Below are positions 6,001 through 30,375 of a stretch of DNA of 30,375 bases, in pieces; within the stretch, counting starts at the first letter, position 1, and each line of letters begins with the position of its first letter. The stretch spans positions 1 through 30,375 of IMG/VR virus record IMGVR_UViG_3300020371_000039; one strand, written 5' to 3'. The stretch is from a virus. A model generated the notes under the pieces. It saw nothing but the letters and a program-made list of their open reading frames with translations, searched no databases and was not told where the DNA came from. The position numbers were made by a program, and so were the translations under genes.

Positions 6001-8204
6001 ATGAAGACGGAACTCCAGTAAGCACAGATAACAATGAAAATCTATTCATTGCATTAAGCGGGGTTCTGCAGCATGAAACCGCATATACTATTGATAGAAC
6101 TACAATTCCTAACAAAGTTATATTCTCTACTCCGCCAATCTGGGGTCAAAATGAAAATACTAAGACCGTACAAGAACCTCTCGCAGTAGAGAAGTTCTTT
6201 GCTCATAGTGTAGGTAATTATTTACGTTGTGAAATTGATAAGTCTGGCATTCTTGATGGTTCTGCAGGTCCATTCTTGATCATTGACACCGAAACTGATA
6301 AGGTAAAATCAATTGACGATTCCCGATTTGCATTAGTCTTTATTGACGGGACATTACAAAGAGAAAAAGATTCCTATATGATTAATGGATCTACAATTAC
6401 ATTTACTAGAAAAATATTCCCAGATAACAATATTGAGATTGTAGTTTTATATGGAAGAGATGTTGAGCAATCTATTACTCTATTTGATTTCCAGAGAAAC
6501 ACTTATTATAATGAACTTACTTTAACATGCGATGCTGGATCTGCTAATAACTTCTTAGCGTGGAAGTCTTGGTATAATAATTCTTATGATAAGTTCAGAG
6601 TTGCATATCAAAAAATTGGTGGTGTTAAAAAGTTCATTGGAAACTTAAAAACTTATACCAGCACTTCACAATCTTTAATTATTACTCTTGCAGGAACTAA
6701 TCCAGATATGGATTCTAGTAATATCTTCTTTGCAGGAAACTCTGATTTTTCAGATGAATATGAATTAACTGGAACTGCAAATAATATTGCAATTAAGAGA
6801 AATGACATCAATGAATATAGAATGCAGAGAAATTCTGCTGATTGGTTATATGGTAGTGAAAGAGCAGATGAATCATTCTACGAAAGAAAGAGGTTATTTG
6901 CAAACTTAAACGCTGGAGATATCATTAAGATTGACGGTGAAAAATCTTTCAGAACTATCAATAAACTACCACAATATGTAAATCCAAAAAACTATAATCC
7001 TGGTGAAGATGTATCAAATAGTTTCTTTGGTTCTGTCACTACTACCAATTATGATGGAGATACCGATGGCGTAGGTCTCAGTGTATCATGCGAAATTTCT
7101 AACGGCAGTGTAACATCAGTATCTTGGAATAGAAAAGATTTACAGTTGCAATATGATACTGGAATTATCCAACCAACAACTGCTTATGGTTATGATTCTC
7201 CTCCAATTTTACACTTCATTTCTAGAAATCAACAAGGTGGTGGTGCTAGAGCAGAAGTAGTTGTGTCAAGGGGACAGATTATTGATATTGTAATTACAAA
7301 TCCTGGTTCTGGATATACTGAAGCACCTAAGGTCGTTACTGCAAGACAGTATGACATTATTAAAAAGGGTGGAAGAAAAATTGACACATTCCATAGTCTT
7401 GTTATTGGATCACAAATTCAACAATCTTCACCAGTTGCAATTGATGTATCCAATTCCAACTTTAGAATTAGATCACTTGAATATCTTGTTACATTTAACG
7501 CATCAGCAAGTAAAGGTGAATATACCTTGTCACTGTTCATGCAACAAAGACTTAATTTTTCTGCAAAACTAAGTTCCAAGCAAGAAATTGTAAGATTTGG
7601 AAAACAATCTGAAGGATTTGCTTCTTCTCCCGTAAGTCAACCAAGTTCTGCATTTACGTTGATGTATGAATTTGGAAGTGTTATTGATTCACAACCAACG
7701 TTGAATACACATGTTGAGAGTATTAAAGCATACCAAGTTGGTTTCTCAAGAAATTCATCTCTTGAAGATCTAACAATATTTAATAATCTAGATCATTGGG
7801 AGAATTCTATCTTTATAGATACTGGTAACTTAGTAGCTTCTAGTGGAACTCCTGTTTCTAAAGTGACGGTTGAAAGTTTGAGACCTTATCAAATTACTTC
7901 CGATGGTGAAAATGCTACTACACCATTCATGTTAGGATATCCAACAATTAATTATTATATGCAGAGACTTGATGTTTCAGATGTTCCTGCAGAAGGAGAT
8001 GCTGGTTATCTTGCAACTGGAGCAGTTGTATATGTAAATGGTGATACATCTAGGTTCCCTGCTTCTGGAACCATTTTACTAGGAAGAGAACAAATTTCTT
8101 ACACTAGTAAACTCACTGATCGTTTCTTAGATTGCACAAGAGGTGTCAATGGTACACCTATTGAGGAGCACCTCATCGGGGAGTACTTAAGAAACGTCCT
8201 ATAA
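1..8204 (+). CDS. Giant virion structural protein with YHYH domain, 5'-truncated (gp7 position)
   Basis: The frame is open from base 3 to the TAA at 8202-8204, giving 2733 visible residues; the true start lies upstream, so the TTG at 327 is not a start. Counting residue 1 at base 3, residues about 70-240 form a YHYH-type domain, with DGNPIYGPFGY and then NGRYCVTPEFPNGTYAYF followed by FPYILG. Next come long beta-rich stretches with repeated GSGY-type and GExI/SGA-type modules. Three related alpha-helical repeats begin at about residues 1418, 1687 and 1805. Three DGIIQ/SGVLQ/DGTLQ beta units lie near residues 1307, 2016 and 2112. No catalytic motif or membrane segment is seen. The gene sits directly before gene 8, the place of T4 gene 7 (baseplate wedge), so a peripheral baseplate role is inferred from position and composition, not from recognisable similarity to gp7. 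The structural-protein call is firm; the exact role is not. Confidence 0.85.
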   Translation, partial: YYSSPPEVLITDSAGKGRFADYTATIDSAGQITGFVKVNGGSLYTQENISVQIIAVGSGATATAKIREWRKDRYYKNLANLDSENGYFFKNFVDSRGHGYAYYASPSTLRANDNGSTHSPILGFAYDGNPIYGPFGYADAVNPQSSVVRMTTSYFRNTTRDFGPPVVTYPIGTFIDDYTYIDGSGSLDQNNGRYCVTPEFPNGTYAYFMTVDAFNSPEFPYILGLNYYSLPVDSNYNSPISQEDIPLRSKRLRTSDIENNGDLAIAKINDAKRGSVSSASILRSVPNFSVGSKLKINNSQTEGFGVSAEVDSVKGRQVVSIESQDTKALFIELISTAYLFDGDTITQSNTGATGQIVGNVFSGTRLALRNVSGTFSSTDKLSSNTTVVSLILSQNSSYTKGAVLSLSDGINLPVATGEVLETTIDQNTVKVKVTSGTFVASDDLIIRSSDLINTTGSKIAAVLSLSSGLDIFTVNDNVALLSTADAHGVAVNEKIDIDINPDDSTTTTTYYVRTRIYQEVFFKSPVVSRVLSDTGVGRIAILNGGNDYTPNTYQGIALSGGSGTGAEATIVVSPSGTVNSVTITNKGSGYKKFDLLTVGNSALNKTNNDTPTLQVSVDHVGFSIQNPVLTVDSSIGITTNDFLQVNDEIVKVINRTDNNLTVERAQKGTIATDHFDGATVTIYDPGYNLNIGYQIGSSVNDPSILSYDPSTQKAVFVYEYNRNLSQINKVELSTVFFDQSSDQRLVEVDSVNDPDVYFEFSSDNTTFVKNQVLDIKKCYKYTFDVSHSSMSGVNFDFSPSINLNVLTTEKTSTANTVSLKIGFGPSISSNQYTTKESIPFTKYFYFDRNGNINSESSFVNVVSDPLQGTKTALYVTSDKILYSTGSAAPHDGSGVMTYISKSIFSIGEINSIKVVNIGRDYRKLPLVTGINPTESYAAVAEAVIESGRVVSVSLTNQGKHYSKPVITCEGNAKLTPISDNGKITGIVINDSGSNYTTAPEITILESDLDCYLNSEDIGVPTSVRIINNGGSYHNDSTLSSTFRSNYILLVSDFDADSFRVGETIVQRFGSVEVARARVTSWRNGSNILIVDRVKGIFRTGNTITGLARNKTAKLESLDYTSFSADIKSYYDNQGYYKSDLGKVSDSNQRITDSYYYQDYSYLVKSRTSIDTWRSLIKTTSHPAGFQLFGEVLVESSSKVEMSPNTSTKTTSIVQLWNPDVNKVTVISTKKKITQSIALVKDTVIEKGVGSVSIDTFNTSEVKAKEVFLNASFDGAFTDRGNLEGTTTFNLIDKNGNTVSPYNEQALTITLDGIIQEPGIAYTVSGDKIVFAQPPLGPSIKDGQVAPGVKFYGRWFQFKTDSLNQKYLKKIRNIFQRSGTWIDAANQLGRNRAFIQSETLGYIKSKYTTFAWGTLDTKCYRDIGLIIDALEHDLRFGGNEKTIKAAESYFRAGTLDYIDGEIEATIDAFAFAVRLCKLAMRNWDYTDRQVSWTPGTDIVETSNTDNITIGMKVSAGKAFAEGTRVAEILDSRNIRVTTNALNVTNASTNTLLSNTVINQDTVSGSNVVEIAPGVFLQITPVNTFSIAPATGALPSDNAQMTFIWSGLNTGTFFDASTLIAANKVNIQREASHRIYNKYPNFTYPRVPENAFRFKDSRRLIYENLQSITNQVIAELESQFGAEYATDSCARDLKIIIASVAEDIGRGGNSATISSTNRYFDAHDALEGERSESVFAFEYARELCIEAINNRGAIKDSNIILVPECNDVNSSITTLFDILINAITNNQKPSISVNTGIKEWVEAEDFCFRDTGIFVDAVVHCLRYGGNKEVIDFANAYFYKGDLNHVKSELRETIYAYNQARDLMIDAMLNQISGSTIIAPYTDPLVRVDTSTPLCAEVKSAITTFAQIVEDTLEGGPDRIEVIPANENSIGNWTTLRTYSNINILPDPQLVNGVLKECEDVASSLDSLYENIRTTLVTGKGTAVVSNPDYIDGENTVFDLYYEDGTPVSTDNNENLFIALSGVLQHETAYTIDRTTIPNKVIFSTPPIWGQNENTKTVQEPLAVEKFFAHSVGNYLRCEIDKSGILDGSAGPFLIIDTETDKVKSIDDSRFALVFIDGTLQREKDSYMINGSTITFTRKIFPDNNIEIVVLYGRDVEQSITLFDFQRNTYYNELTLTCDAGSANNFLAWKSWYNNSYDKFRVAYQKIGGVKKFIGNLKTYTSTSQSLIITLAGTNPDMDSSNIFFAGNSDFSDEYELTGTANNIAIKRNDINEYRMQRNSADWLYGSERADESFYERKRLFANLNAGDIIKIDGEKSFRTINKLPQYVNPKNYNPGEDVSNSFFGSVTTTNYDGDTDGVGLSVSCEISNGSVTSVSWNRKDLQLQYDTGIIQPTTAYGYDSPPILHFISRNQQGGGARAEVVVSRGQIIDIVITNPGSGYTEAPKVVTARQYDIIKKGGRKIDTFHSLVIGSQIQQSSPVAIDVSNSNFRIRSLEYLVTFNASASKGEYTLSLFMQQRLNFSAKLSSKQEIVRFGKQSEGFASSPVSQPSSAFTLMYEFGSVIDSQPTLNTHVESIKAYQVGFSRNSSLEDLTIFNNLDHWENSIFIDTGNLVASSGTPVSKVTVESLRPYQITSDGENATTPFMLGYPTINYYMQRLDVSDVPAEGDAGYLATGAVVYVNGDTSRFPASGTILLGREQISYTSKLTDRFLDCTRGVNGTPIEEHLIGEYLRNVL
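4254..5606 (+). repeat. Threefold helical repeat inside the giant YHYH protein
   Basis: Three units of about 62-64 residues lie at 4254-4445, 5061-5246 and 5415-5606. Each starts C-x-RD, has (L/V/S)xxD(L/I/C)xxGGN near its middle, then SYF/RYF/AYF, and ends in an R-L-C/R-E-L-C/R-D-L helix followed by a short N-terminated turn. Their helical character contrasts with the beta-rich remainder of the protein. Confidence 0.82.
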
Positions 8205-18170: not shown

Positions 18171-18401
18171 ATGAGACATATTAAAGTAAAGAACGAAGAT
18201 CACCTGTATCGCGATGTTGATACAGGTGCAATCATAAATACTGACAGATCATCCTTTGAAAGGCATAAGAGGTCTAGAAGTAAGTTCCGAAACATGGAAC
18301 AAGAACTGGACCATGTAAAGAGTGAAATCAGCGAGATCAAGTCCCTATTACACCAGTTAATTAATTCCAATGACACTCAGGAAAGTAGAAAAGACATTTA
18401 G
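18171..18401 (+). CDS. Small conserved-type phage protein with C-terminal coiled coil
   Basis: The 76-residue protein starts at ATG 18171, one base after the stop of the DUF4815 gene, in a TTGATATG junction; a TTG 15 bases upstream in the same frame is less likely. The N-terminal half (RHIKVKNEDHLYRD, then DTGAIINTD) looks like a small beta unit. It is followed by a basic stretch (RHKRSRSKFR) and a heptad-like C-terminal helix (MEQELDHVKSEISEIKSLL). Similar small basic/coiled-coil proteins sit between structural genes in T4-like cyanophages, but no function is known to me. The gene's last 32 bases overlap the next gene. It also contains a perfect hairpin (18201-18228) and a late-promoter-like box (18233-18240). 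Confidence 0.8.
   Translation: MRHIKVKNEDHLYRDVDTGAIINTDRSSFERHKRSRSKFRNMEQELDHVKSEISEIKSLLHQLINSNDTQESRKDI
18201..18228 (+). other. Perfect 10-bp inverted repeat inside a coding region
   Basis: CACCTGTATC (18201-18210) pairs perfectly with GATACAGGTG (18219-18228) around an 8-base loop. No T-run follows, so it is not a classical terminator. It ends four bases before a CATAAATA box. It could be an RNA structure affecting processing or translation of the overlapping genes, or a binding site; its role is unknown. Confidence 0.6.
18233..18240 (+). promoter_or_regulatory. Internal late-promoter-like box
   Basis: CATAAATA fits the NATAAATA late consensus. It lies within the 76-residue gene, about 130 bases before the first tail-fibre gene (18370), which has no other candidate promoter. 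Being in coding sequence, it could be a chance match; the pairing with the preceding hairpin makes it somewhat more credible. Confidence 0.5.
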
Positions 18402-21400
18402 TCTTGAAGAGCAGAGACAAGAAATTAATGAGATTGCAGTAGATCTTGATGCTATTAATACTACGATCTCAAATTATAACACTACTAATTGGGATACAGC
18501 GTATAGTTGGGGTGATCACGCTCAGGCAGGTTATTGGGTAGATAACGCAACTAGTAGAGGGCAGTGGGATGCTGCTTATGGTTGGGGTGATCACGCACAA
18601 GAAGGTTATCTTGTAAATGGATCTCTTTCCTCTGTAGTTTATAGGGGAAATTCAGATTTTAAACTTATTGCTGGTGGATCTCAAACAACGAGACCTTATA
18701 TCCATCTAAAGAATACAACCAGTACAGATTTAGAAATTGTAGGGGCACAAAGTGATTCTGCTGGTGTAACTATTGATTCTCGTGGAACAGGTACAGTAAA
18801 ACTGAAAGACGGTGGAGATATCAGAGTAGAAACTTCAAATACTGGAGTAACTATTACTGGTGTTCTAACTGCTGGTGGTCTTTCTTATCCAAATAGCAAT
18901 GGTAGTGCTGGTGAAGTTCTTACTAGTGATGGTGCTGGTAATATAACATGGGCATCTTCTAGTGCATATGGGTATATCTCGGGAATTGGATCAACTCCAT
19001 CTCATGGTTTAGTACATGATGCAAATCTTGATCAATTTGTAATTAAAGATGGTACTAAATTAGCATTTGGTACAGGTGATCCAAACACAACTGGTGGAGA
19101 CTACTTTATTAGTTGGACTAGTAATGGCACTTCTGGTGATTTGGTCATGGAACCAAATGCTAATCAGCAAGCAACTAATAATGTATACATTAGATCTAAT
19201 GCAACAGGTGGAGTTGCAATTTTAGATGGTGGTTCAGTTGAATTATATCACCTCAGTGATAAAAGATTATATACAGATGCTGCTGGAATCCAAGTTGTTG
19301 CTGCTGGTGTTGGTGCTACTAGTGGAGGAAATATAACTTGTGGAAATATCGTCGCTAGCGAAGTAATTCAGGCTAGCAATCAAGGTCAAAGTGGTGTACT
19401 TGGCACTTCGGATGAATGGACTACCGCATATGGTTGGGGTGATCACGCTCAAGCAGGTTATCTAACAGCAGAAGCAGATACGATTGCTACCGTAGTTGCA
19501 AGAGGGGATACTATTGGTAATGATACTTCATTAAAATTTGGTGATACTGCTCCAACACAAATTTATTATGATAGTGCCAATAATGTCACAGCATTTGAAT
19601 CTAATGCATTAATTTTTAGAACAAAAACTACACCTCATGAAGATTACATTACATGTCTTGAGGGTGGAGCCGTTGAATTTTATTATGATGGTGCAAAGAA
19701 ATTAGGAACTACTAGTACTGGTGTATCTGTTGTTGGAGATCTTTCCGTCAGTGGAACGACAGATATTGACATTTCAGACCTAAACAATGTAAGCACTGCT
19801 GCAGCTTCTACTGGTCAAGTATTGACTTGGGATGGATCTCAATGGGCACCTGCAGGAAGTGCTGCTGCTACGGCAAATACTTTCAGTTCTTACCTAAATG
19901 GTGAACCTAGATGGTCTGAGCAAACAGCAGCAAGTGGATATACTGAGACCATAAGCTATGCATCTGCTGCTACTACTGGACCTGGAGGTGTATCATTAGA
20001 TGCGATTACTGACAGTAGCGATACAACATATGTAAGCATGGGTTCTGGTCATGGTGACCGTAGCATCTTGTGGTTAACTCAAGGAACACTAGCTGATGTA
20101 GTTAAAGTTACCGTTGGATATGATGGTGACGGTTGGTTGGGTCTACAAGGAACAGTTCAGGATCCTTCTACTCTGTTAAAAGTTAGTGATGGTCTAGCAT
20201 ATGGCACACCTGGAATTGTAGGATCTGCTACAGAAATTATCCTATATGATGAAACTGGTACTAATACAGCAGCAGCTTCTGGTCAATTACAATATTTAAG
20301 TTTTACAGAATATACAGATCCTAATGGCACTGCTCCTACGGGTGCTATTAAAGGAGCATCTTCAGTATGCCACATTTATTACTTAAAAGTTCAGAGATTA
20401 GTTGATAATGTATTAACTGAAATTACTTATGTACCAACTGCAACTGGGGGAATTTCTCTGGGAGATCTTTCTGTTGCTACAAATCCAGTAGGTACTGCTG
20501 CATTATCATATAGTAATATTACTGGCATTTTCACTTACACTCCGCCAGATCTTACAAATCAAAGCAACTGGGATACGGCATATGGTTGGGGCGATCACGC
20601 TCAAGCAGGGTATCTAACATCTGTTCCAGCTCCTGATCTCAGCAACACTTCTATTGATGCATTCTCTGATGTAGACACTACATCAACTGCACCTACACTA
20701 AACCAAATCCTTAGATGGAATGGTGCTAAATGGGTTCCTACAGATGAAGGTAGCACTAGTGGTGGTGGCGGTGGAACTGCGTTCCAACATGCTGTTGGAC
20801 AGGTAGAATATACTACACCAGGAACTACTACTTGGACATGTCCACCAAACGTAAATACTGTATGTGTAGTTTGCGTTGGTGGAGGTGGCGGTGGCGGTAC
20901 TGGCACTGGATATCAAGGTGGCGGTGGCGGTGGTCTTGGTTGGAAAAATAACATCACTGTAGTTCCTGGTCAAACATACAATATTGGCGTCGGTGCTGGT
21001 GGTGTTGGTAATACCAGTGGCGGAACTAATGGTGGAACTTCATACTTTATGGATGCCACAACTTGCGCTGGTGGCGGTGGATCTGGAAATAATGGTGGTG
21101 GCGGAACCTATTCGGGAGATGGTGGCGGTAACGGAGGAAATCACATAAGTTACGGTGGCGGCGGTGGCGCTGGCGGATATTCTGGAGACGGTAACAGTGA
21201 AACTGGTGGCGCAGGTGGTGCAGGCGCTGGAACAGGAAACACTGGCGGTGGAGCTGGTGGAGGCGGTGTTGGTCTCTTAGGTGAAGGAACCTCAGGTTTA
21301 AATTATAATGGTGGTACTGGAAATGTAATTACTTATGGAGCTACAATTAATGGTGGTGGCGGTGGTTCTGGTGGTGCTAATGGAAGTAATGGTCTAGCCT

Positions 21401-22254
21401 CTACATACACAACCAATTATAATCAAGACGCTATACTAGGTGCGCCTGGAGGTAATTATGGTGGAGGTGGCGGTGGCAGTCACAGTAGTTATGATTCTGG
21501 TCAAACATCTAACCAAGGTAATGGTGGTAATGGTGCCGTAAGAATTATTTGGGGTGATGGAAGATCATTCCCTTCCACTTTGACTACTGACCAACCAGTT
21601 GATGCAGGACAAGCAGGTTCTTCAGGAGGTACACTGAATAATATTGTTGATTCTGCACAAGGTGTTGATGTTACTGGTAGAGTTGCATGTGAGGGAGTTA
21701 ATATTAGTACTGGTGGACAAATTAATGCTGCAGGATGTTCAATTGATTTCCAAAGTGCTCTTATTAGTTTCAGTGGTGCAAGTGTCAGTGGTTTGAGTGG
21801 CGAGATTCGTGAAACTGTTGATCTCCATTTAAATCAAACTGATGGAACTAACACTTTACCAAGTGATGGACAAGTTCTAAGTTGGAATGCAACTGGTGGT
21901 GGACTTGGAACTGGTGATTATGAATGGGTTGATCAGGGTGGTAGTGGTAGTATCGGAATTAATACTCAAACTGCATCGTATACTTTAGTAGCATCCGACG
22001 CTGGAAAAGCAGTAGTTTGCTCTGCTAACTCTGGAACAATTGAAGTTCCTAGTGCAGTATTCAGCGCAGGTAATTTGGTGACTATCATTAACGATTCATC
22101 TACAACTCAAACTATTTCTCAGGGAACAGGTCTAACGATGTATTTCACTGCATCTGGTGCTGTGGGCAATAGACAAGCAAATCAAAGAAGTTCTACCACT
22201 ATATTATTTGTATCTTCTACAGTCGCTTATATTTCTGGATCTGGGTTAAGTTGA
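18370..22254 (+). CDS. Tail-fibre-like protein with WGDHA repeats and glycine-rich domain
   Basis: The 1294-residue protein is probably a host-recognition fibre. The N-terminus (residues 10-29) has EEQRQEINEIAVDLDAI, a likely docking helix also seen in the gene at 27240. Four WDTAYGWGDHAQAGY-type repeats lie at about residues 41, 66, 350 and 734. Two VELYH.../VEFYYDG...TGVSVV units lie near 290 and 435, and several GQVLxWDGxxWxP linkers link domains. A beta-rich region of unknown fold covers about 500-690. A glycine-rich domain runs from about 810 to 1067, opening VEYTTPGTTTW and closing GAVRIIWG. The last ~100 residues (TASYTLVASDAGKAVV...) resemble the C-terminal beta-domain of many phage fibres. 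The start at 18370 overlaps the previous gene by 32 bases and keeps the docking motif. The next gene follows one base after the stop. Confidence 0.85.
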   Translation: MTLRKVEKTFSLEEQRQEINEIAVDLDAINTTISNYNTTNWDTAYSWGDHAQAGYWVDNATSRGQWDAAYGWGDHAQEGYLVNGSLSSVVYRGNSDFKLIAGGSQTTRPYIHLKNTTSTDLEIVGAQSDSAGVTIDSRGTGTVKLKDGGDIRVETSNTGVTITGVLTAGGLSYPNSNGSAGEVLTSDGAGNITWASSSAYGYISGIGSTPSHGLVHDANLDQFVIKDGTKLAFGTGDPNTTGGDYFISWTSNGTSGDLVMEPNANQQATNNVYIRSNATGGVAILDGGSVELYHLSDKRLYTDAAGIQVVAAGVGATSGGNITCGNIVASEVIQASNQGQSGVLGTSDEWTTAYGWGDHAQAGYLTAEADTIATVVARGDTIGNDTSLKFGDTAPTQIYYDSANNVTAFESNALIFRTKTTPHEDYITCLEGGAVEFYYDGAKKLGTTSTGVSVVGDLSVSGTTDIDISDLNNVSTAAASTGQVLTWDGSQWAPAGSAAATANTFSSYLNGEPRWSEQTAASGYTETISYASAATTGPGGVSLDAITDSSDTTYVSMGSGHGDRSILWLTQGTLADVVKVTVGYDGDGWLGLQGTVQDPSTLLKVSDGLAYGTPGIVGSATEIILYDETGTNTAAASGQLQYLSFTEYTDPNGTAPTGAIKGASSVCHIYYLKVQRLVDNVLTEITYVPTATGGISLGDLSVATNPVGTAALSYSNITGIFTYTPPDLTNQSNWDTAYGWGDHAQAGYLTSVPAPDLSNTSIDAFSDVDTTSTAPTLNQILRWNGAKWVPTDEGSTSGGGGGTAFQHAVGQVEYTTPGTTTWTCPPNVNTVCVVCVGGGGGGGTGTGYQGGGGGGLGWKNNITVVPGQTYNIGVGAGGVGNTSGGTNGGTSYFMDATTCAGGGGSGNNGGGGTYSGDGGGNGGNHISYGGGGGAGGYSGDGNSETGGAGGAGAGTGNTGGGAGGGGVGLLGEGTSGLNYNGGTGNVITYGATINGGGGGSGGANGSNGLASTYTTNYNQDAILGAPGGNYGGGGGGSHSSYDSGQTSNQGNGGNGAVRIIWGDGRSFPSTLTTDQPVDAGQAGSSGGTLNNIVDSAQGVDVTGRVACEGVNISTGGQINAAGCSIDFQSALISFSGASVSGLSGEIRETVDLHLNQTDGTNTLPSDGQVLSWNATGGGLGTGDYEWVDQGGSGSIGINTQTASYTLVASDAGKAVVCSANSGTIEVPSAVFSAGNLVTIINDSSTTQTISQGTGLTMYFTASGAVGNRQANQRSSTTILFVSSTVAYISGSGLS
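18490..18609 (+). repeat. WGDHA protein repeats 1 and 2
   Basis: Two 45-base units (18490-18534 and 18565-18609) encode WDTAYSWGDHAQAGY and WDAAYGWGDHAQEGY. The DNA core TGGGGTGATCACGC is identical in both. Copies 3 and 4 lie at 19417 and 20569. Confidence 0.9.
19417..19461 (+). repeat. WGDHA protein repeat 3
   Basis: This copy encodes WTTAYGWGDHAQAGY, about 280 residues after copy 2. It marks a boundary between successive fibre segments. Confidence 0.88.
20569..20613 (+). repeat. WGDHA protein repeat 4
   Basis: This copy encodes WDTAYGWGDHAQAGY. A short linker and the glycine-rich domain follow it. Confidence 0.88.
20797..21570 (+). other. Glycine-rich domain 1 (coding segment)
   Basis: The segment encodes a module opening QVEYTTPGTTTW, with GLGWKNNITVVPGQTYNIGV, GGYSGDG and GLLGEG motifs, closing GAVRIIWGDGR. 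The same motif order recurs twice in the next gene. The GGT/GGC/GGA runs make the DNA locally repetitive and raise its GC content over its surroundings. Confidence 0.8.
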
Positions 22255-22255
22255 T

Positions 22256-25200
22256 ATGCAGTCTATCTTCATGGGTTATGGAGGTTCTAGTTCTGGATCT
22301 CCATTTGCTGGTCCAAGCATTACAGATACAGAATCTGGATCTGAGGAGTGGACAACTCCTGGCAGTTATACTTGGGTGTGTCCACAAAACGTATATTGGG
22401 TTTCTTCAGTCTGTATAGGTGGCGGTGGTCATGGAGGAACTTCAAACGCCAGAGGTGTAGCAGGTGCTGGTGGTGGTCTTGGTTGGAAAAGATATATTGC
22501 AGTTACGCCAGGGCAATCATATGATGTAGTAGTTGGATCTGGAGGTCAAACTGCAGGGAGCACTGGAGGTAATTCATATTTTGTAAGTTCTGCGGTATGC
22601 CAAGGTAACGGAGGAGGATTCTCTTCTGGTGGAAGTTATGTTGGAGATGGTGGCGGCACTGGTGGTGGTGGAGGAACAGGTGGAACTTATGTTTCATACA
22701 CCAATGCACAAACAAGAACTGGAACGGGCGATTACTACGAAAAACCATCATGTGCAGGTGCTACTAATGGTTGGTATACAAGATCTGGCGATGAAGAAAC
22801 TACAGGTGATCAAGATGTCCGAGCATTACAAATTTTCTGGGATGGAACTACAATATATGATGGAAGTGGAGCAGGTGCAAATTTAGAAGATGGTTATTAT
22901 ATTGCAGGAGGTTATGCTTATATTTGGGGAACGCATAGAGGCAGTGTATATGGTTGGTGTAATAATGATGATTGTGGAACATGTTCTTCTCCATCAGGAG
23001 ATATGTGTAACGGATTTGATGTAGTAAGATATGATTACACCGCATCTGGTGGTGGTGATGGAGCTGGTGGCGGTGGCGCTGGAGGATATTCTGGAAATGG
23101 TGGCAATGGAGCGAGTTTTCCTGGTGGTGCTGGATCTAATGGTCTTGGTGGTGCTGGTGGCGGCGGTGGATGCCAGTCTATAAATGCTGCTGGATATACT
23201 TTTGGTGGTTTTGGTGGTGGAACAGGAATTTATGGTGAAGGTGATAATGGAATTGGCGGTCCTCAAGCATCCACTGATAACCATGGTTATCAAGGTTCAC
23301 CAGGACCCGTAGCGCATCCATGGGCAGATGGAGTAGAAGCTTCTGGATGGGCAGCGAGTGACCTTTCAGATTACATGTTTAATGGTAGTTTGAATACGTT
23401 TGCAAAAGCAGAAACTGTATATACAGATTACTTAGGATGGAATAATTCTGGTACAGATTTACCTGCTATTAAAGGTCCTGTAGAAATTTACCAAGCATAT
23501 GCAGATGTTGTAAATTATACGTACACAGTAAACGGAAATATTGTTACTCCAAATACAACAGGAGCAGCAGATAGTGGTGCCTGGATTACTATCTCTAGTG
23601 GAGATGTCAATAGTTTTAGAGTCACATCTCCATCAAGTGCGGTTAATGTTCAAATTGCAGGTGTAAGATCAAATGGAGTATTATTAACTCCAACAACATT
23701 ATATGAACCACTTTCTACTCAGAGTAGAGTGTTTGGTGGAGGTGGTGGTGGAACTACCGATTTTGGCACTGAGGGAACTGGCGCTGGTGGCGACGGTGCT
23801 GTCAGAATTATCTGGGGACCAGAGAGAGAATATCCATCAACTCACACAAAACAAGACGATTACGCATACAACTGGAATTACAATGTTGGAGATTGGGTTC
23901 CTGCATTTGGTGGTTATTATGCTGGAATTCTTAGAACAGGATCTGAGTCTTTTACGAATCTAGATCCTGCAGAAACTTTATATAGAATTTTTATTGCAGA
24001 GAAATCTGTTTCTCAATCTCAAGGACAATATAAAACTTCTCAATCATGCGACGGTAGTCATACGTACCCAGGAACTACAACAGCTCCGAATTCGCAATGG
24101 GATGGATATTTCAATACTTATCAGAGCGTTCTAGCAAATTCGGGAGTATCTCATCCGATATTTAATACAGTACAGAATTTATCAATTACAGTAGATGGAA
24201 ATGTTTTTGATGATTGGTATATTCCAGCTCATGAAGAAGCAGGTGTAGTATATGGCAAATTAGAAGATTCTCTTGGTTGGCAAAGTAGTTCTCAAGCATT
24301 TGATACTACTAGCGCAGGAACTGCAAATGGTATTGGGGAACTTTGGACAAGTAGCGGAGATTCTTGCAGTAATACTGGTGTTTTAGTTACTGCTGGAAAA
24401 TGGTTTCCTAACAATGGTTTAGTGTATGGATACTATAAAGATGAAATTTCTTCTATCAGACCTATAAGAAGAGTTCCATTATCAGCTACTGCAGTATCAT
24501 CTGGACCTACAGGTCAAGTAGAATATACAACTGCTGGCACTTACAATTGGACTGCTCCTGAAGGAGTTGAGTATGTCTCAGTTGTTTGTGTTGGTGGTGG
24601 AGGACATGGATATGATCAGAATGAAGGGGGATCTGGAGGATCTAATGTCCCTGGCGGTGGTGGAGGATTGGGATGGAAAAATAATATTCCAGTAGTTCCT
24701 GGTCAAACTTATACAGTAAAAGTAGGTGGCGAAAGTTATGATAACTTAGGAATTCCTGGATCAGCTACACCTGGGGCTGGTGGCGGAACTTCGTATTTTA
24801 TTGATGACACAACTGTCTATGGTGGCGGTGGAGGCGTGCTGAATTATATTGGTGGTGGTTATGTAGGAGATGGCGGTGGTGAAGGTGGCGGCACAAATGT
24901 TGTGTCTGGAGCATTCTGGGGCGGTTGCGGTGCTGGTGGTTATACTGGTGATGGTGGTAAAGGTGGATATGGTACTAATGCCGCTGGCGATGGAGCTGGA
25001 GGCGGCGGCGGAGGTGGTGGTGCCACATCATTCCCTGCTGGAGGCGGCGGCGGTGTAGGAATTTATGGTCAGGGTGCCAATGGTATTGGTGCGGGAACAA
25101 CTCAAGGTGGTGGCGGTGGTTCTGGTGGAACTAGTGGCACTGCAGGATCTGGCGGTTCTGGCAATACCAGAGGCAATGGTGGTAGTTATGGAGGCGGTGG

Positions 25201-25315
25201 AGGATGTGGAGGTTCAGGAATCCTCGGTCCTGGTGGAATTGGCGGTGGAGGTGCCGTAAGAATCATCTGGGGTCCTGGAAGAGCATTCCCTAACTACAAT
25301 ACAGGTAATCTATAA
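22256..25315 (+). CDS. Glycine-rich adhesin with DUF1566/lectin-like domain
   Basis: The 1019-residue protein is a likely receptor-binding tail protein. It begins MQSIFMGYG, nearly the same as the next gene. A glycine-rich domain spans about residues 31-526 (WTTPGSYTW at the start, GAVRIIWG near the end). It is interrupted by two inserts. Insert A (about 147-265) carries a C-X4-C-X2-C-X7-C cluster. Insert B (about 336-488) looks like a galactose-binding-type beta-sandwich (FNGSLNTFAKAE, then VRSNGVLL). Residues about 552-741 resemble DUF1566 (Lcl-type, C-type-lectin fold): GGYYAGIL, DDWYIPAHEE (W654), ELWTSS (W697), RPIRRV (735-740). A second glycine-rich domain runs from 753 to the C-terminus. 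No signal peptide is seen. The start is set by the TTGATATG junction with the previous gene. Fold calls are by eye. Confidence 0.85.
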   Translation: MQSIFMGYGGSSSGSPFAGPSITDTESGSEEWTTPGSYTWVCPQNVYWVSSVCIGGGGHGGTSNARGVAGAGGGLGWKRYIAVTPGQSYDVVVGSGGQTAGSTGGNSYFVSSAVCQGNGGGFSSGGSYVGDGGGTGGGGGTGGTYVSYTNAQTRTGTGDYYEKPSCAGATNGWYTRSGDEETTGDQDVRALQIFWDGTTIYDGSGAGANLEDGYYIAGGYAYIWGTHRGSVYGWCNNDDCGTCSSPSGDMCNGFDVVRYDYTASGGGDGAGGGGAGGYSGNGGNGASFPGGAGSNGLGGAGGGGGCQSINAAGYTFGGFGGGTGIYGEGDNGIGGPQASTDNHGYQGSPGPVAHPWADGVEASGWAASDLSDYMFNGSLNTFAKAETVYTDYLGWNNSGTDLPAIKGPVEIYQAYADVVNYTYTVNGNIVTPNTTGAADSGAWITISSGDVNSFRVTSPSSAVNVQIAGVRSNGVLLTPTTLYEPLSTQSRVFGGGGGGTTDFGTEGTGAGGDGAVRIIWGPEREYPSTHTKQDDYAYNWNYNVGDWVPAFGGYYAGILRTGSESFTNLDPAETLYRIFIAEKSVSQSQGQYKTSQSCDGSHTYPGTTTAPNSQWDGYFNTYQSVLANSGVSHPIFNTVQNLSITVDGNVFDDWYIPAHEEAGVVYGKLEDSLGWQSSSQAFDTTSAGTANGIGELWTSSGDSCSNTGVLVTAGKWFPNNGLVYGYYKDEISSIRPIRRVPLSATAVSSGPTGQVEYTTAGTYNWTAPEGVEYVSVVCVGGGGHGYDQNEGGSGGSNVPGGGGGLGWKNNIPVVPGQTYTVKVGGESYDNLGIPGSATPGAGGGTSYFIDDTTVYGGGGGVLNYIGGGYVGDGGGEGGGTNVVSGAFWGGCGAGGYTGDGGKGGYGTNAAGDGAGGGGGGGGATSFPAGGGGGVGIYGQGANGIGAGTTQGGGGGSGGTSGTAGSGGSGNTRGNGGSYGGGGGCGGSGILGPGGIGGGGAVRIIWGPGRAFPNYNTGNL
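22346..23833 (+). other. Glycine-rich domain 2 with two inserted domains
   Basis: This copy has the same opening and closing motifs as domain 1 (WTTPGSYTW; GAVRIIWG), with GGYSGNGG and GIYGEGDNGIGG in between. It is expanded by two non-glycine-rich inserts, at about 22695-23050 and 23263-23720. Confidence 0.75.
24512..25315 (+). other. Glycine-rich domain 3
   Basis: This third copy opens GQVEYTTAGTYNW, contains GLGWKNNIPVVPGQTYTV, GGYTGDGG and GIYGQGANGIG, and closes GAVRIIWGPGR at the protein's C-terminus. It has no large insert. Confidence 0.8.
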
Positions 25316-25319
25316 AATC

Positions 25320-26777
25320 ATGCAGTCAATTTTTCTAGGATACGGTAAAAGTGAAGATCCTAATTCGTGGGTTCTTTTTATTGGCGATGATATCAATACA
25401 GATGCTAGTCCAACAAATCCTGGACGATTTTATGGTGGCGCTAGTTACATGGCGTTGGAAGTAGACAACCAAGGAAATTATCTGGTGGGATCAACTAGAT
25501 ATCAGTCCAGTTCTGTTAATGCTTTATTATATCTTTCAAAAATTTCAAACCAAGGAATTTTATTATGGGAGCTTGAGTTAACTGAACAATATGGGACAGG
25601 TCCTCTCTATGATTGCAGAACATACATGGAAGATATTGTTGTAGATGACGAAAACGCAATCTATGTTACTGGCAGTATTGTTACCACTGGTGCTCAAAAT
25701 GGATTCTTGATGAAGTTATCCGATACGGGACTTGTACAATGGCAACAGCATTGGGCATATCCAGATGTCTCATATACAAATGTTGGATATAAAGTAAGAT
25801 TCAATGACAATAACGATCCAGTAGTTTTTGGAACTTATAATTACACTAGACCATATGAAATTGGTGGTCATTTGCAACATGGTATTTGTTATGCTTTTGA
25901 TAAAGTTAGCGGTACACGTTTAACAGATAGAATTTTTATCGGTAGTTCTGGTGGATTAGGATCATGTTATTTTTATGATGCGGATAGAATTGGAGACTAT
26001 TTTTATATCCGTATGAATGGATATTATACTCATAGTCCCTATGTTGGTGGTCGTAGTCAATCTGCAATTATCAAGACCAATATGGCATGTACTACATTAG
26101 AAGCAATTCAGAATACACATATTGGTTCAAATTCTAATGTATACATTTACGAAGGTCTTGAAACTAATGGAACAAATGTTGCAGCTACAACGCAACTAAA
26201 TGATGGAGCAGGTGGTGGACCGAAACAATGGCATATTTTTGATACAGATCTAAATCAATTATATGGTTGGAGATACAATAACTCTGCTGCTGGAGTTGTA
26301 CAGGGACTCAATCACAACTGGGTATATGAAGGAAATTTCATTTATGCGGCAGTTACAACCAATGATGAATTGGTGCATTTTTTCAAGTTCAATATGACTA
26401 CTGGAGCAATAATTTGGCAAAATAAAATGCAAGGAGACACCAATAATAAAATTGCTTCCAGCACCTATAATGAGAGTTATTTGAGAAAAGATGCAGATGG
26501 GTATTTGGTATATTTGAATTCAACAAATAAAACGGAACTTTATGGTGATGCACATGTATTGATCTCTTTCCGTGTACCCGAAGATGGAACTGCACTAGGA
26601 GACTACGGAAACTATGAGTATTCTGCATCAACTGATGTATCTTTAACTACTACAGATCCTCCTACAGGAAGTAATCCTGCAACTTATCCTTCTGCTACAG
26701 CACCTACAGATTATGGTGATCCTGGAGTTGTGGAACAAGATCCCAACATTCCAATATATAAAGTGAGTAAAATATAA
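25320..26777 (+). CDS. Probable beta-propeller tail protein
   Basis: The 485-residue protein begins MQSIFLGYG, matching the N-terminus of its upstream neighbour, so both probably attach to the virion in the same way. The rest looks like a beta-propeller of the kind built from GxLxW blades: GILLWELEL, GLVQWQQHW and GAIIWQNKM alternate with strands such as NYLVGSTRY, AIYVTGSIV, PVVFGTYNY and FIYAAVTTN. The C-terminal ~60 residues are a Pro/Thr/Ser-rich tail. I do not recognise a named family. The context (fibre cassette) suggests a host-recognition or accessory tail part. The gene starts four bases after the previous stop, and the next starts three bases after its own stop. Confidence 0.78.
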   Translation: MQSIFLGYGKSEDPNSWVLFIGDDINTDASPTNPGRFYGGASYMALEVDNQGNYLVGSTRYQSSSVNALLYLSKISNQGILLWELELTEQYGTGPLYDCRTYMEDIVVDDENAIYVTGSIVTTGAQNGFLMKLSDTGLVQWQQHWAYPDVSYTNVGYKVRFNDNNDPVVFGTYNYTRPYEIGGHLQHGICYAFDKVSGTRLTDRIFIGSSGGLGSCYFYDADRIGDYFYIRMNGYYTHSPYVGGRSQSAIIKTNMACTTLEAIQNTHIGSNSNVYIYEGLETNGTNVAATTQLNDGAGGGPKQWHIFDTDLNQLYGWRYNNSAAGVVQGLNHNWVYEGNFIYAAVTTNDELVHFFKFNMTTGAIIWQNKMQGDTNNKIASSTYNESYLRKDADGYLVYLNSTNKTELYGDAHVLISFRVPEDGTALGDYGNYEYSASTDVSLTTTDPPTGSNPATYPSATAPTDYGDPGVVEQDPNIPIYKVSKI

Positions 26778-27239: not shown

Positions 27240-27803
27240 ATGGCAGCAGTAGATTTAAAATACGTTGATCCGTCTAATACTATTGAATTTCAACGTACAG
27301 TAATTAATGATATTGCAACAGATATCCATGCTGTATACACGGGAACTGCAGATCTTAAGGTAACGAGTCTGCAGGTTGGTGGTGCTGACGTTGGTGCAAT
27401 TGCCGACCAGTTAGATAAAATTATTTTCTTCTATTACGGTGCATTTGAATCTGATAGAACTGTTTCTTCACCAAATAAATTTGCTGAAGTTTTTACTCAT
27501 ACAGATGCAACTGTTGATATTGATGATGGCGTAACTATTACTGTAGATGATAGTTGTGTTTTTGCATGTACAGATACAAATCAATATCTATTCTTTACTA
27601 ATCAGACAGAACAAACAAACCTACCAAAGTTAGTGGATTTTGCAGATAATGTAAGGACATCTTTTACATCAAATGTATCTTTGGTTGGCGATAAAAAAGT
27701 AGGATATATTATTCTTCCAGCAGAATATGAAGAAGATGTACCTATTGATATTGAAGATGGGGTAGAGGTTGTTATCGGAGACCAAGCAGTCCTCATCGTA
27801 TAA
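27240..27803 (+). CDS. Tail-fibre or baseplate-associated protein (187 aa)
   Basis: The 187-residue protein has an N-terminal motif, EFQRTVINDIATDIHAV (residues 16-32), that aligns with the N-terminus of the fibre at 18370 and is likely a docking helix. A short beta segment (TADLKVTSLQVGGADVG) follows. The C-terminal two thirds carry two similar beta units, VDIDDGVTITVDDSCVFA and IDIEDGVEVVIGDQAVLIV, a pattern common at the ends of phage fibre proteins. It sits after a terminator and before a beta-helix tail protein, around where T4-like phages keep genes 9 and 10. I see no direct match to T4 gp9, so no symbol is given. The stop codon is embedded in a TATAAATA box. Confidence 0.8.
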   Translation: MAAVDLKYVDPSNTIEFQRTVINDIATDIHAVYTGTADLKVTSLQVGGADVGAIADQLDKIIFFYYGAFESDRTVSSPNKFAEVFTHTDATVDIDDGVTITVDDSCVFACTDTNQYLFFTNQTEQTNLPKLVDFADNVRTSFTSNVSLVGDKKVGYIILPAEYEEDVPIDIEDGVEVVIGDQAVLIV

Positions 27804-27845: not shown

Positions 27846-30375
27846 ATGTCCACATTAAGAGTAGACAATATTAAGTCGCGTACTGGAACGACAGTCACAA
27901 TTCCAGATTCTCAGAATTTGCAGGTAACTGGGTCACTGAACGTTAGTGGAACTCAATCATTTTCTGCTGGTGCATCTTTAGCATTGCAAGGAGAAAATAT
28001 TAACTCTGGAGTTAGAGGAGACATTCTTTATTATGATGCAAATGGACAGATTGCAAAACTAAACATTGGTGCTGCTGGTGCTGTTCTCCAGTCAGACGGA
28101 ACTGATGTTTCTTGGGGACAGATTGGTGGTGCAACTAACGTTTTTTATGTTGCCACTAATGGTACTGATGCTGCTGGTCGTGGTGGATCTATTGATACTG
28201 CTTTCGCATCATTGAAGTATGCTTGTGCCAATGTCGGTACACCAACACTTACTTCTCCAGCTGTTATCTTCGTAAAAGCAGGTACTTACGAAGAAGCACA
28301 ACTTCCAATTGTCGTTCCTCCTTTTACTACAATTGTTGGCGATAATCTTCGTGCTACTGTCATTAAACCAGCAACTGGTCTAGATTCCTCAGGATCTGTT
28401 CTTAACAATAGATCTACTCTGTTTAGATGTAGTAATGGAACAATTATCCAAGACCTTGTTCTTAACGGTATGGAGGGATACACTCCAGGATCTCCAGCAT
28501 ACGATCCAGAAGGAGCAACTCTTGGTGGTGTATATTTTGCATTAAACGCTGCAAGTCCAATTACCGACAAATCACCATACATTTATAATGTAACATCTTT
28601 TGGTGAAGGTGCTACTGGTGCTTATGTTGATGGTAGTCTACATGCAAGTGGAAACCGCAGTATGCTGTTCCACACATATACTTCTATTCATAGTGATGGA
28701 GTGGGTATTTGGGCAGATGCCAATTCAAACTGCGAGGTAATTTCTGGTTTTACTTATTATTGTCAGATTGGATATGCCGCAACTGGTGGTTCTAAGATTA
28801 GATCACTGAACTCATCCAACTCTTATGGTGAGTACGGTGTGTTCTCTAAAGGATTTGATGCTGGAGAAACTCCAAATTCAGGAACAGTTTCTGGAACAAT
28901 GCTTCAGTATGTTAATGTACTGACTACTGATTTCCAATTAGGAGAACAAATTACAGGCGGAACTTCTGGTGCAACTGCGTATGTTGCTAACGTACAAGCA
29001 GAACCAAAAGTTATTTACATCGTTGGCAAGACTGGAACATTCCAAGCAAATGAAGTTGTCACAGGTGCAACTTCTGGTGCTACTGCAACTCTAGAGGCAT
29101 CAAGCGTAGAAATTAATCAGTCGGGAAGAATTCTCGTCACTACATTTGCATCATCCGCTGATCCTGGTGACTCTCTACAGTTTGCTAGCACTGATGGTAA
29201 CGCATATCAGATTCAAACAGTAAGTTCGGTTACTGCTAATAGTGTTGCGTATCACGTTCTAGTATTTTCAACATCAAGAGCAACACCAGTTCCCAGTGGA
29301 ACAACTGTCAATGTAAGAAAAGAATTTAGTCTTGTTAGACTAACAGGTCACGATTTCCTACAAATTGGTACTGGAGATTCTACCACAACAAATTGGCCAG
29401 GAAGTCCAACACAACCAGCTTCACAAGCTGATCAGATTGTTACTAATCAAACTGACCCTGGTCGTGTTTATTATGTTGCAACTGATGATCTTGGTAATTT
29501 CTACGTTGGTGATTATTTTAAGGTTGATCAAGCAACTGGTCAAATTACTCTTGACGCATCAGCATTTAACCTAACTGGTCTTCAATCTCTGAGACTTGGT
29601 TCTCTTGGCGGTCTAATTGGTGCATCAGTCAATGAATTCTCTACCGATGGAACTTTATCTCAAAATAGTGACGAGAAAGTTCCAACTCAAGCAGCGGTTA
29701 AGTCTTATGTAGATACCAGTCTTTCTGGTTTAACTTCTGTTTCTGGTGACTTTACAGTTACTGGTAATCTAACAGTTAGTGGTACTACTACAACTATCAA
29801 CACCACCACTTTGGACGTAGAAGATAAGAACATTGTTGTTGCTAAAGGAGCTGCAGATGATAACGCAGCATCTGGTGGTGGTATTACGGTTGAATCTGGT
29901 GATGGTAATAAGGCATTTACTTGGAATGCGTCTGGTGTTCAAAATTACTGGCAGGTTGCTGGAGGTCAGTTATATGCTGCAGAGGGTTTAAATGCTTATG
30001 GTATGCTTTCTGAGCAAGTTAAGATTCTCAGTAACGACCTCGGTTCTGTACCTGAAATTAATGTTTCGGAGGGTATGGTTCATTATAGATCTGCTAACTT
30101 AGGTACTGATATTAGACCTAATATTAGATATAGTTCTACTAGAACTTTGAATAACACTATGAGTATTGGTGAGGCTATTACCGTCACGATTATTCACCTT
30201 GTAAGTAATTCTGATAACAATGTAAGTGGACTTGAAATTGATGGTACTATTCAATCAGTAAATTGGATTGGAGGTACTCCACCATCGGATGGCGGATCCA
30301 CTGGTGTTGATATTTACACCTTCAACATCATCAAAACAGCAGCAAACACTTATACCGTCATCGGTAATCAATCTA
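27846..30375 (+). CDS. Large tail protein with beta-helix domain, 3'-truncated
   Basis: The frame is open from ATG 27846 to the window end (843 residues visible, no stop). The N-terminus (MSTLRVDNIKSRTGTTVTIP) and LQVTGSLNVSG segment are typical of phage fibre starts. A GAVLQSDGTDVSWG linker follows. From about residue 98 (FYVATNGTDAAGRGG, FASLKYA, IFVKAGTYEE, TTIVGDNLRATVI) the sequence reads as a pectate-lyase-like right-handed beta-helix to about residue 330. Two GEQITGG/NEVVTGA...SGATA modules lie near 364-415. The NLTVSGTTTTINTTTLDVED segment near 640 is a widespread phage fibre module. The gene is positioned like T4 gene 10 or a tail-fibre gene, but I see no clear gp10 match. A glycan-binding or glycan-degrading role is possible for the beta-helix; no catalytic residues could be assigned. 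Confidence 0.83.
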   Translation, partial: MSTLRVDNIKSRTGTTVTIPDSQNLQVTGSLNVSGTQSFSAGASLALQGENINSGVRGDILYYDANGQIAKLNIGAAGAVLQSDGTDVSWGQIGGATNVFYVATNGTDAAGRGGSIDTAFASLKYACANVGTPTLTSPAVIFVKAGTYEEAQLPIVVPPFTTIVGDNLRATVIKPATGLDSSGSVLNNRSTLFRCSNGTIIQDLVLNGMEGYTPGSPAYDPEGATLGGVYFALNAASPITDKSPYIYNVTSFGEGATGAYVDGSLHASGNRSMLFHTYTSIHSDGVGIWADANSNCEVISGFTYYCQIGYAATGGSKIRSLNSSNSYGEYGVFSKGFDAGETPNSGTVSGTMLQYVNVLTTDFQLGEQITGGTSGATAYVANVQAEPKVIYIVGKTGTFQANEVVTGATSGATATLEASSVEINQSGRILVTTFASSADPGDSLQFASTDGNAYQIQTVSSVTANSVAYHVLVFSTSRATPVPSGTTVNVRKEFSLVRLTGHDFLQIGTGDSTTTNWPGSPTQPASQADQIVTNQTDPGRVYYVATDDLGNFYVGDYFKVDQATGQITLDASAFNLTGLQSLRLGSLGGLIGASVNEFSTDGTLSQNSDEKVPTQAAVKSYVDTSLSGLTSVSGDFTVTGNLTVSGTTTTINTTTLDVEDKNIVVAKGAADDNAASGGGITVESGDGNKAFTWNASGVQNYWQVAGGQLYAAEGLNAYGMLSEQVKILSNDLGSVPEINVSEGMVHYRSANLGTDIRPNIRYSSTRTLNNTMSIGEAITVTIIHLVSNSDNNVSGLEIDGTIQSVNWIGGTPPSDGGSTGVDIYTFNIIKTAANTYTVIGNQS

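Follow-up and report, generated by a model that had tools for sequence, protein, structure and literature searches.

Among the known systems closest to that described here are the gp38 adhesins of phages T2 and S16 (PF05268; PDB 6F45), where a gene directly downstream of that of a trimeric fibre specifies an N-terminal attachment part specific to the fibre tip and a freely exchanged Gly-rich host-binding body. In S16 one gp38 docks through its N-terminus on the tip of the gp37 trimer, attachment being by a three-helix domain with three tryptophans (PMC6851490), while the gp37 of T2 rejects the gp38 of PP01 unless the N-terminal 113 residues of gp38 are exchanged (PMC12892980). In the branched tailspikes of CBA120 and G7C (TSP4, XD domains) receptor-binding proteins are likewise recruited by N-terminal parts; XD1 of TSP4 represents, together with T4 gp9 and gp10, a trimeric phage module, and is described as a spacer rather than a partner-binding module, its ends being occupied by other domains, with docking taking place via the XD2/XD3 jellyrolls of the trimeric partners (PMC8825819). 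In the depolymerase spikes of Klebsiella phages a conserved N-terminal module is reported to carry interchangeable enzymatic or binding bodies, these anchors reportedly being whole domains that attach to the tail (PMC6872550).

The window analysed here, i.e. the whole stretch of DNA under study, is a 30,375-base IMG/VR virus record, which was assigned to the tail region of a T4-like cyanophage (a marine cyanobacterial virus) on the basis of its large ORFs, whose matches are to families of baseplate-wedge, virion structural and tail-fibre proteins; its nearest isolates are Synechococcus phages, at approximately 72% nucleotide identity. Two of its proteins start with MQSIF(M/L)GYG, and we consider it likely, with a probability of roughly 0.82, that this represents a short N-terminal address peptide by which a host-binding protein with a gene of its own is mounted on the distal tip of a trimeric fibre, the docking itself being inferred. 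As for gp38 of T2 and S16, the genes concerned are separate and downstream of a fibre gene (the ORF at 22256 adjoins it and that at 25320 follows 22256), the N-terminus is specific to the fibre tip and Gly-rich bodies are exchanged. In contrast to gp38, the window tags comprise some 10 hydrophobic residues with neither tryptophan nor a three-helix domain, tagged bodies are drawn from many families, two tagged genes per fibre are possible, and there are at least two tip-tag classes. By analogy, the tag likely works as the gp38 attachment domain does, at a far smaller size and for many binding domains, yet the window proteins are not gp38 by membership, as they lack the three-helix domain and the tag tryptophan, and neither of them matches PF05268 at E 0.01 in Pfam; four tagged proteins outside the window do match this family. 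The fold of XD1 is also that predicted for the fibre tip discussed below, but as distinct from the internal spacer of CBA120 and G7C the XD1-like domain is here C-terminal and its partner brings a short tag only, while in comparison with the Klebsiella phage anchors the tag is just nine to twelve residues long and is matched to fibre tips. No short adhesin docking peptide of this kind was found in the literature searched, coverage of which was partial.

The two tagged proteins and the upstream fibre

A first-pass annotation of the window, made from sequence alone, had claimed that two neighbouring proteins share the start MQSIF(M/L)GYG and are dissimilar after these nine residues, and both claims held. 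The ORF at 22256-25315 (1019 aa) starts MQSIFMGYG and that at 25320-26777 (485 aa) starts MQSIFLGYG, with 8 of 9 residues identical. The best BLASTP match between the two proteins comprises the tag only (12 aligned residues), the others being weak or due to low-complexity glycine, and BLASTP revealed no significant similarity outside the tag. Of the 27 bases encoding the tag, 8 are not the same in the two copies, and 7 of these are at third codon positions; the codons differ at almost every synonymous position, which argues that the tag has been kept as a peptide and is not a recent DNA copy.

The 22256 protein, called an adhesin, has Gly-rich adhesin-like domains, its match to Gly_rich_2 (PF21722) scoring 35.1 bits and thereby exceeding the curated cutoff of 24.3. 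Its first 30 residues, MQSIFMGYGGSSSGSPFAGPSITDTESGSE, are free of tryptophan and have the look of a short tag followed by a linker. For the 25320 protein, which enters its body by residue 14, the designation as a propeller remains unconfirmed: no Pfam, PHROG or PDB match was obtained, and the structure model, with a mean pLDDT of 40, was too poor for a fold search. The protein is beta-rich with repeats and is weakly linked to one tagged propeller-like protein (L242), while its body is 66% identical to L003:10468; tblastn of this body in isolates gave insignificant matches only, and neither the tagged proteins nor the tip had a significant match in sequence searches of the PDB.

The coordinates of the features are given in Table 1. 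The stop codon of the tail-fibre gene at 18370 lies 1 nt ahead of the first tag gene, and the C-terminal tip of this fibre is the likely docking platform for both tagged proteins, although physical docking is inferred. The first-pass annotation had proposed a virion-docking peptide with baseplate proteins as candidate sites; the likely site is corrected here to the distal tip of the fibre encoded just upstream, and both physical binding and presence in the virion are still inference.

Table 1. Features of the tail-fibre region of the window and their positions
Feature	Position	Strand	Remarks
Tail-fibre gene 18370	18370..22254	+	1294 aa; PHROG tail fiber family 9729; C-terminus ...AYISGSGLS
Class A fibre-tip domain	21949..22251	+	101 aa; alignment A3 (43 sequences); predicted T4 gp9 / TSP4 XD1-like beta-sandwich
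Tag 1, MQSIFMGYG	22256..22282	+	Scores 12.5 for the class A motif (window left out of training)
Body of tagged protein 1, Gly-rich adhesin-like domains	22283..25315	+	Gly_rich_2 at residues 33-207; phrog_4474 at residues 747-1017
Tag 2, MQSIFLGYG	25320..25346	+	Scores 20.3 for the class A motif (window left out of training)
Body of tagged protein 2, beta-rich repeat protein	25347..26777	+	Homologues in L003 and L045; propeller unconfirmed
Small structural protein adjoining the class B fibre	27240..27803	+	N-terminus resembles that of the 18370 fibre
Second tail-fibre gene, class B tip	27846..30374, runs off the window	+	phrog_9851, phrog_5906
Class B fibre-tip domain, incomplete at the window end	30015..30374	+	Alignments A2 and A7

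Fibre-tip classes and their tags

An exact search for MQSIFxGYG in IMG/VR, as had been suggested with the original claim, gave no match beyond the window, nor did tblastn against phages with the first 22 residues, so the tag family was found through gene context. MQSIF(M/L)GYG was established to be one spelling of a widespread tag, approximately M-x-Q-Q-M/I-L/F-L-G-x-G, that occurs in many aquatic viruses, and with this degenerate family being abundant the objection that the two window tags are a mere chance pair was not borne out. The class A tip was defined as the fibre C-terminal domain of some 100 residues ending in ...AYISGSGLS, with a tag gene within one or a few bases of the fibre stop, and the class B tip as an unrelated tip, related to phrog_5906, such as that of the window gene at 27846. 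They were treated as separate classes because comparison of their profiles found no similarity (hhalign probability 1.5%). From IMG/VR, 79 class A and 80 class B loci were gathered by tip sequence alone and the next ORF was then read, resulting in 56 unique ORFs for class A and 64 for class B. Those following class A tips start with variants of x-Q-Q-(M/I)-(L/F)-L-G-x-G-(G/A), e.g. MPIQQILLGAGG, MMQQMLVGGSA and MQQMFLGLGA, and same-slot relatives include MMQQMLLGGSG (L002), MMQQMLVGGHT (L005) and, in L003, MMQSLLLSYS and then MMHPILLSYV. For class B tips the start is a variant of MPxIITRGAxSARGFGF, or of ...PLSMTGLGGGATSL where the contig is cyanophage-like. Behind the class A tips of isolate phages the tags are divergent (MSLQKMSVG, MGIHQALFV, MSAIQMAVL and MSGIAMMLM), which counts against the address-peptide reading; the tagged genes of isolates are labelled 'hypothetical protein' or 'PE_PGRS family protein'.

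The link between tag and tip class is strict. Leave-one-out motif models assigned tags to the correct tip class for 38 of 39 class A and 61 of 61 class B non-redundant pairs (Fisher p 7e-27), and in the sole miss, L125, the fibre is followed by a second fibre which ends in a class A-like tip and is in turn followed by MSILQMFLGAGG, a class A tag. When a motif model derived from other phages only was applied to the 93 ATG starts of the window, the two tags ranked first and second with scores of 20.3 and 12.5, as compared to 5.9 for the next best. For a follow-up set of 49 further class A tips, 31 of the next ORFs exceeded the score of the highest-ranking window start without a tag and 45 had a positive score, with nearly all lower scorers being readable variants (MGIHQALI, MTIMQSFF, MTSVAILLGS); just 11 of 201 control starts passed, 10 of which were tags already known. 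Since these tips have relatives in part of the training set, they test the rule, albeit not in fully independent lineages. Among candidate exceptions, L159, L161 and L165 were rejected since their class A-like domain is not C-terminal, and L168 was rejected as its class A-like domain is internal and its C-terminus class B-like; the tag which follows is class B-like, as the tip rule predicts. A tip search in cellular genomes retrieved 2 partial matches only, both in metagenome-assembled genomes.

It could be argued that the shared start is a nucleic-acid feature, such as a translational coupling signal or a recombination landing site for domain shuffling, and that the peptide has no role. The start codons overlap or abut the fibre stop, mostly at -1 or +1 nt (-1 nt for 31 and +1 nt for 14 of 56 class A tag ORFs), and the motif is located exactly at the shuffling boundary, both of which would fit such a signal, although this spacing also counts in favour of the address-peptide reading. 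However, the tag codons vary at synonymous positions, the second window tag (25320) is not adjacent to a fibre stop, and a different peptide stands behind the class B fibres of the same contigs, making this explanation very improbable.

We attach equally little weight to the possibility that the tag docks elsewhere on the virion than at the fibre tip, at a conserved site in the baseplate or on another tail protein, with tip class being a mere genomic marker. In its favour, the tie between tag and tip rests on genomic linkage only and not on binding. Against this, six single contigs (L177, L179, L180, L193, L200 and L257) harbour both tip classes and both matching tags, each behind its own tip, and the tag therefore tracks the fibre and not the phage; in addition, the isolates that have class A tips, namely podoviruses (Autographiviridae) and S-CBS2, are not T4-like phages with a T4-like baseplate.

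Exchange of bodies behind the tags

The proposal that a shared tag allows different binding domains to be swapped at one site was supported by comparative evidence across phages, since the tag follows one tip class while unrelated bodies follow the tag, since homologous bodies change tag with tip class, and since the second protein lacks the tag when fused. Tabulation of the domains behind the tags revealed varied bodies with a Pfam repertoire largely common to both tag classes: mainly Gly_rich_2 (19 of 44 for class A, 18 of 56 for class B), in addition to Laminin_G_3 (3 versus 7), DUF7483 (3 versus 4), SBBP propeller (1 versus 3) and GP38 (2 versus 2). Homologous binding proteins possess the tag that matches the tip ahead of them, A with A and B with B, and the tag thus follows the tip and not the body. 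The identity between bodies is 37% over 827 positions for L113 (tag A) and L244 (tag B), 45% over 443 for L151 and L242 and 35% over 620 for L114 and L207, all three alignments beginning after the tag or at its end. In both L193 and L200 a single contig carries two related Gly-rich bodies, one with tag A and one with tag B, each behind its own tip.

A natural fusion was observed in L045, where one long ORF (L045:2-2995) combines a Gly-rich N-terminal part with a C-terminal homologue of the 25320 body, 60% identical from residue 14. At the junction the tag is absent and a linker takes its place, as a docking tag predicts, because a body already attached covalently can do without one. The ORF is, however, truncated at the 5' end, and a tag at the start of the fusion could not be seen. 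The fusion also suggests that both bodies can sit at the same position.

Two tagged genes behind one class A fibre are present in the window and in L003, and L258 also has two tagged genes. The tandem tags agree at 8 of 9 residues in the window and 5 of 9 in L003, as compared to 4 of 9 between the orthologous 25320-type proteins of the two phages; the closer agreement of tandem tags is merely suggestive, as 8 of 9 is also reached among other class A pairs.

The strongest rival explanation, which we nonetheless regard as unlikely, is that the tagged proteins are fibre-assembly chaperones similar to T4 gp38 or Tfa, the tag binding the nascent tip and aiding trimerisation before the protein is released. 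In its favour, the tagged gene is directly downstream of the fibre, T4 gp38 (PMC12892980) and Pam3 gp25 (PMC9608196) are precedents of released chaperones, and several Gly-rich bodies match phrog_863 'tail fiber assembly', although over the Gly-rich region; the match of a window protein to this family is weak and similarly confined to Gly-rich sequence (E 0.0011). A chaperone for one conserved tip should, however, itself be conserved, and it is only the tag of about 10 residues that is, while the bodies are diverse, lectin-like or Gly-rich, and swap between tip classes; furthermore, no Tfa-type or chaperone Pfam domain was found in the window proteins.

The class A tip and a proposed address code

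An AF2 monomer model of the window class A tip (43 sequences) reached a mean pLDDT of 97, and its structural matches include a Klebsiella phage baseplate protein (9f4a_LS, Z 12.2), the Pa223 capsid spike in its C-terminal domain (Z 11.8), residues 79-183, i.e. XD1, of CBA120 TSP4 (7rej; VIA Z 9.9, 92 residues), T4 gp9 (1qex; VIA Z 9.1, 88 residues, 2.4 Å) and T4 gp10 (Z 8.9). The tip is thereby predicted with high confidence to adopt the T4 gp9 / CBA120 TSP4 XD1 fold over the whole domain. As the domain is C-terminal and nothing follows it, its distal face is free, and we infer this to be the docking face, against which stands the spacer role described for XD1 in CBA120 TSP4.

In the address-peptide reading that we favour, the fibre would trimerise, the trimer being inferred, and present its gp9/XD1-like C-terminal tip of about 100 residues, to which the hydrophobic tag of the adhesin would bind so that the body projects towards the host. 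Each tip class would accept its own tag, and any body acquiring that tag could be mounted; in the window phage, a Gly-rich adhesin and a beta-rich repeat protein would both be tagged for one class A fibre. The permanent presence of these proteins in the virion, their stoichiometry and receptor binding by the bodies are likewise inferred: no proteomics placing a tagged protein in a virion was found, and the S-SM1 proteome (PMC3037559) could not be linked to a tagged gene. According to a bolder reading, which we would as readily doubt as accept, aquatic phages of several morphotypes use an address code in which the class of the fibre tip dictates the tag of the adhesin, and phages with two tagged genes (the window, L003 and probably L258) mount two different binding proteins on a common tip, either at once or one in place of the other, thereby giving one fibre type more than one host specificity. 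Few phage genes are as difficult to identify as those for the receptor-binding proteins of aquatic phages, given the divergence and swapping of their bodies. Read in combination with the tip encoded upstream, a tag in the first dozen residues would point out host-range genes in phage genomes that are otherwise unannotated. The tag code would also assign an adhesin to its fibre, and would provide a testable rule for adhesin exchange among phages of cyanobacteria and other aquatic bacteria.

A number of other recurrent N-termini were observed. Genes located after fibres with other C-termini start with MASIIHRGFGTPAK and MVQQLLHHMDSDPV (L016 2353 and L049 1323, respectively) and possibly represent further tip-tag classes. 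Two consecutive fibre genes of L021 (2798 and 4052) have the common start MAINFPxTxGQxTDGSxTH, which may be another fibre-base module. Several consecutive fibre genes of one phage (L004 2952, 4719 and 11446) have in common a longer N-terminal module, MVLRNVxKTFSLEEQRQEINEIAxDL, variants of which are present in the window at 18370 and 27240; it likely constitutes the attachment end of the fibres themselves. The gene order around 27240 is kept in L024, L026, L032 and L033. On one phage contig, L007, three nearby genes (8305, 10144 and 11359) contain RCC1-like repeats (WAWGRNTFGRLGDGT) with no recognised tip ahead of them. Elsewhere in the window, positions 327-8204 are taken up by a very long gene for a virion structural protein, for which TTG is listed as the start codon and the N-terminal part of which matches Pfam YHYH (PF14240). 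Finally, the last 110 bases of the window (30266-30375) are 99.1% identical to positions 1-110 of IMGVR_UViG_3300020371_000056 (L204/L057), a contig that probably continues the window and derives from the same or a near-identical phage; in L204 the gene after the class B tip starts with MMFNNWYRKEQPIQGMMGMGGGATGYL, a class B tag.
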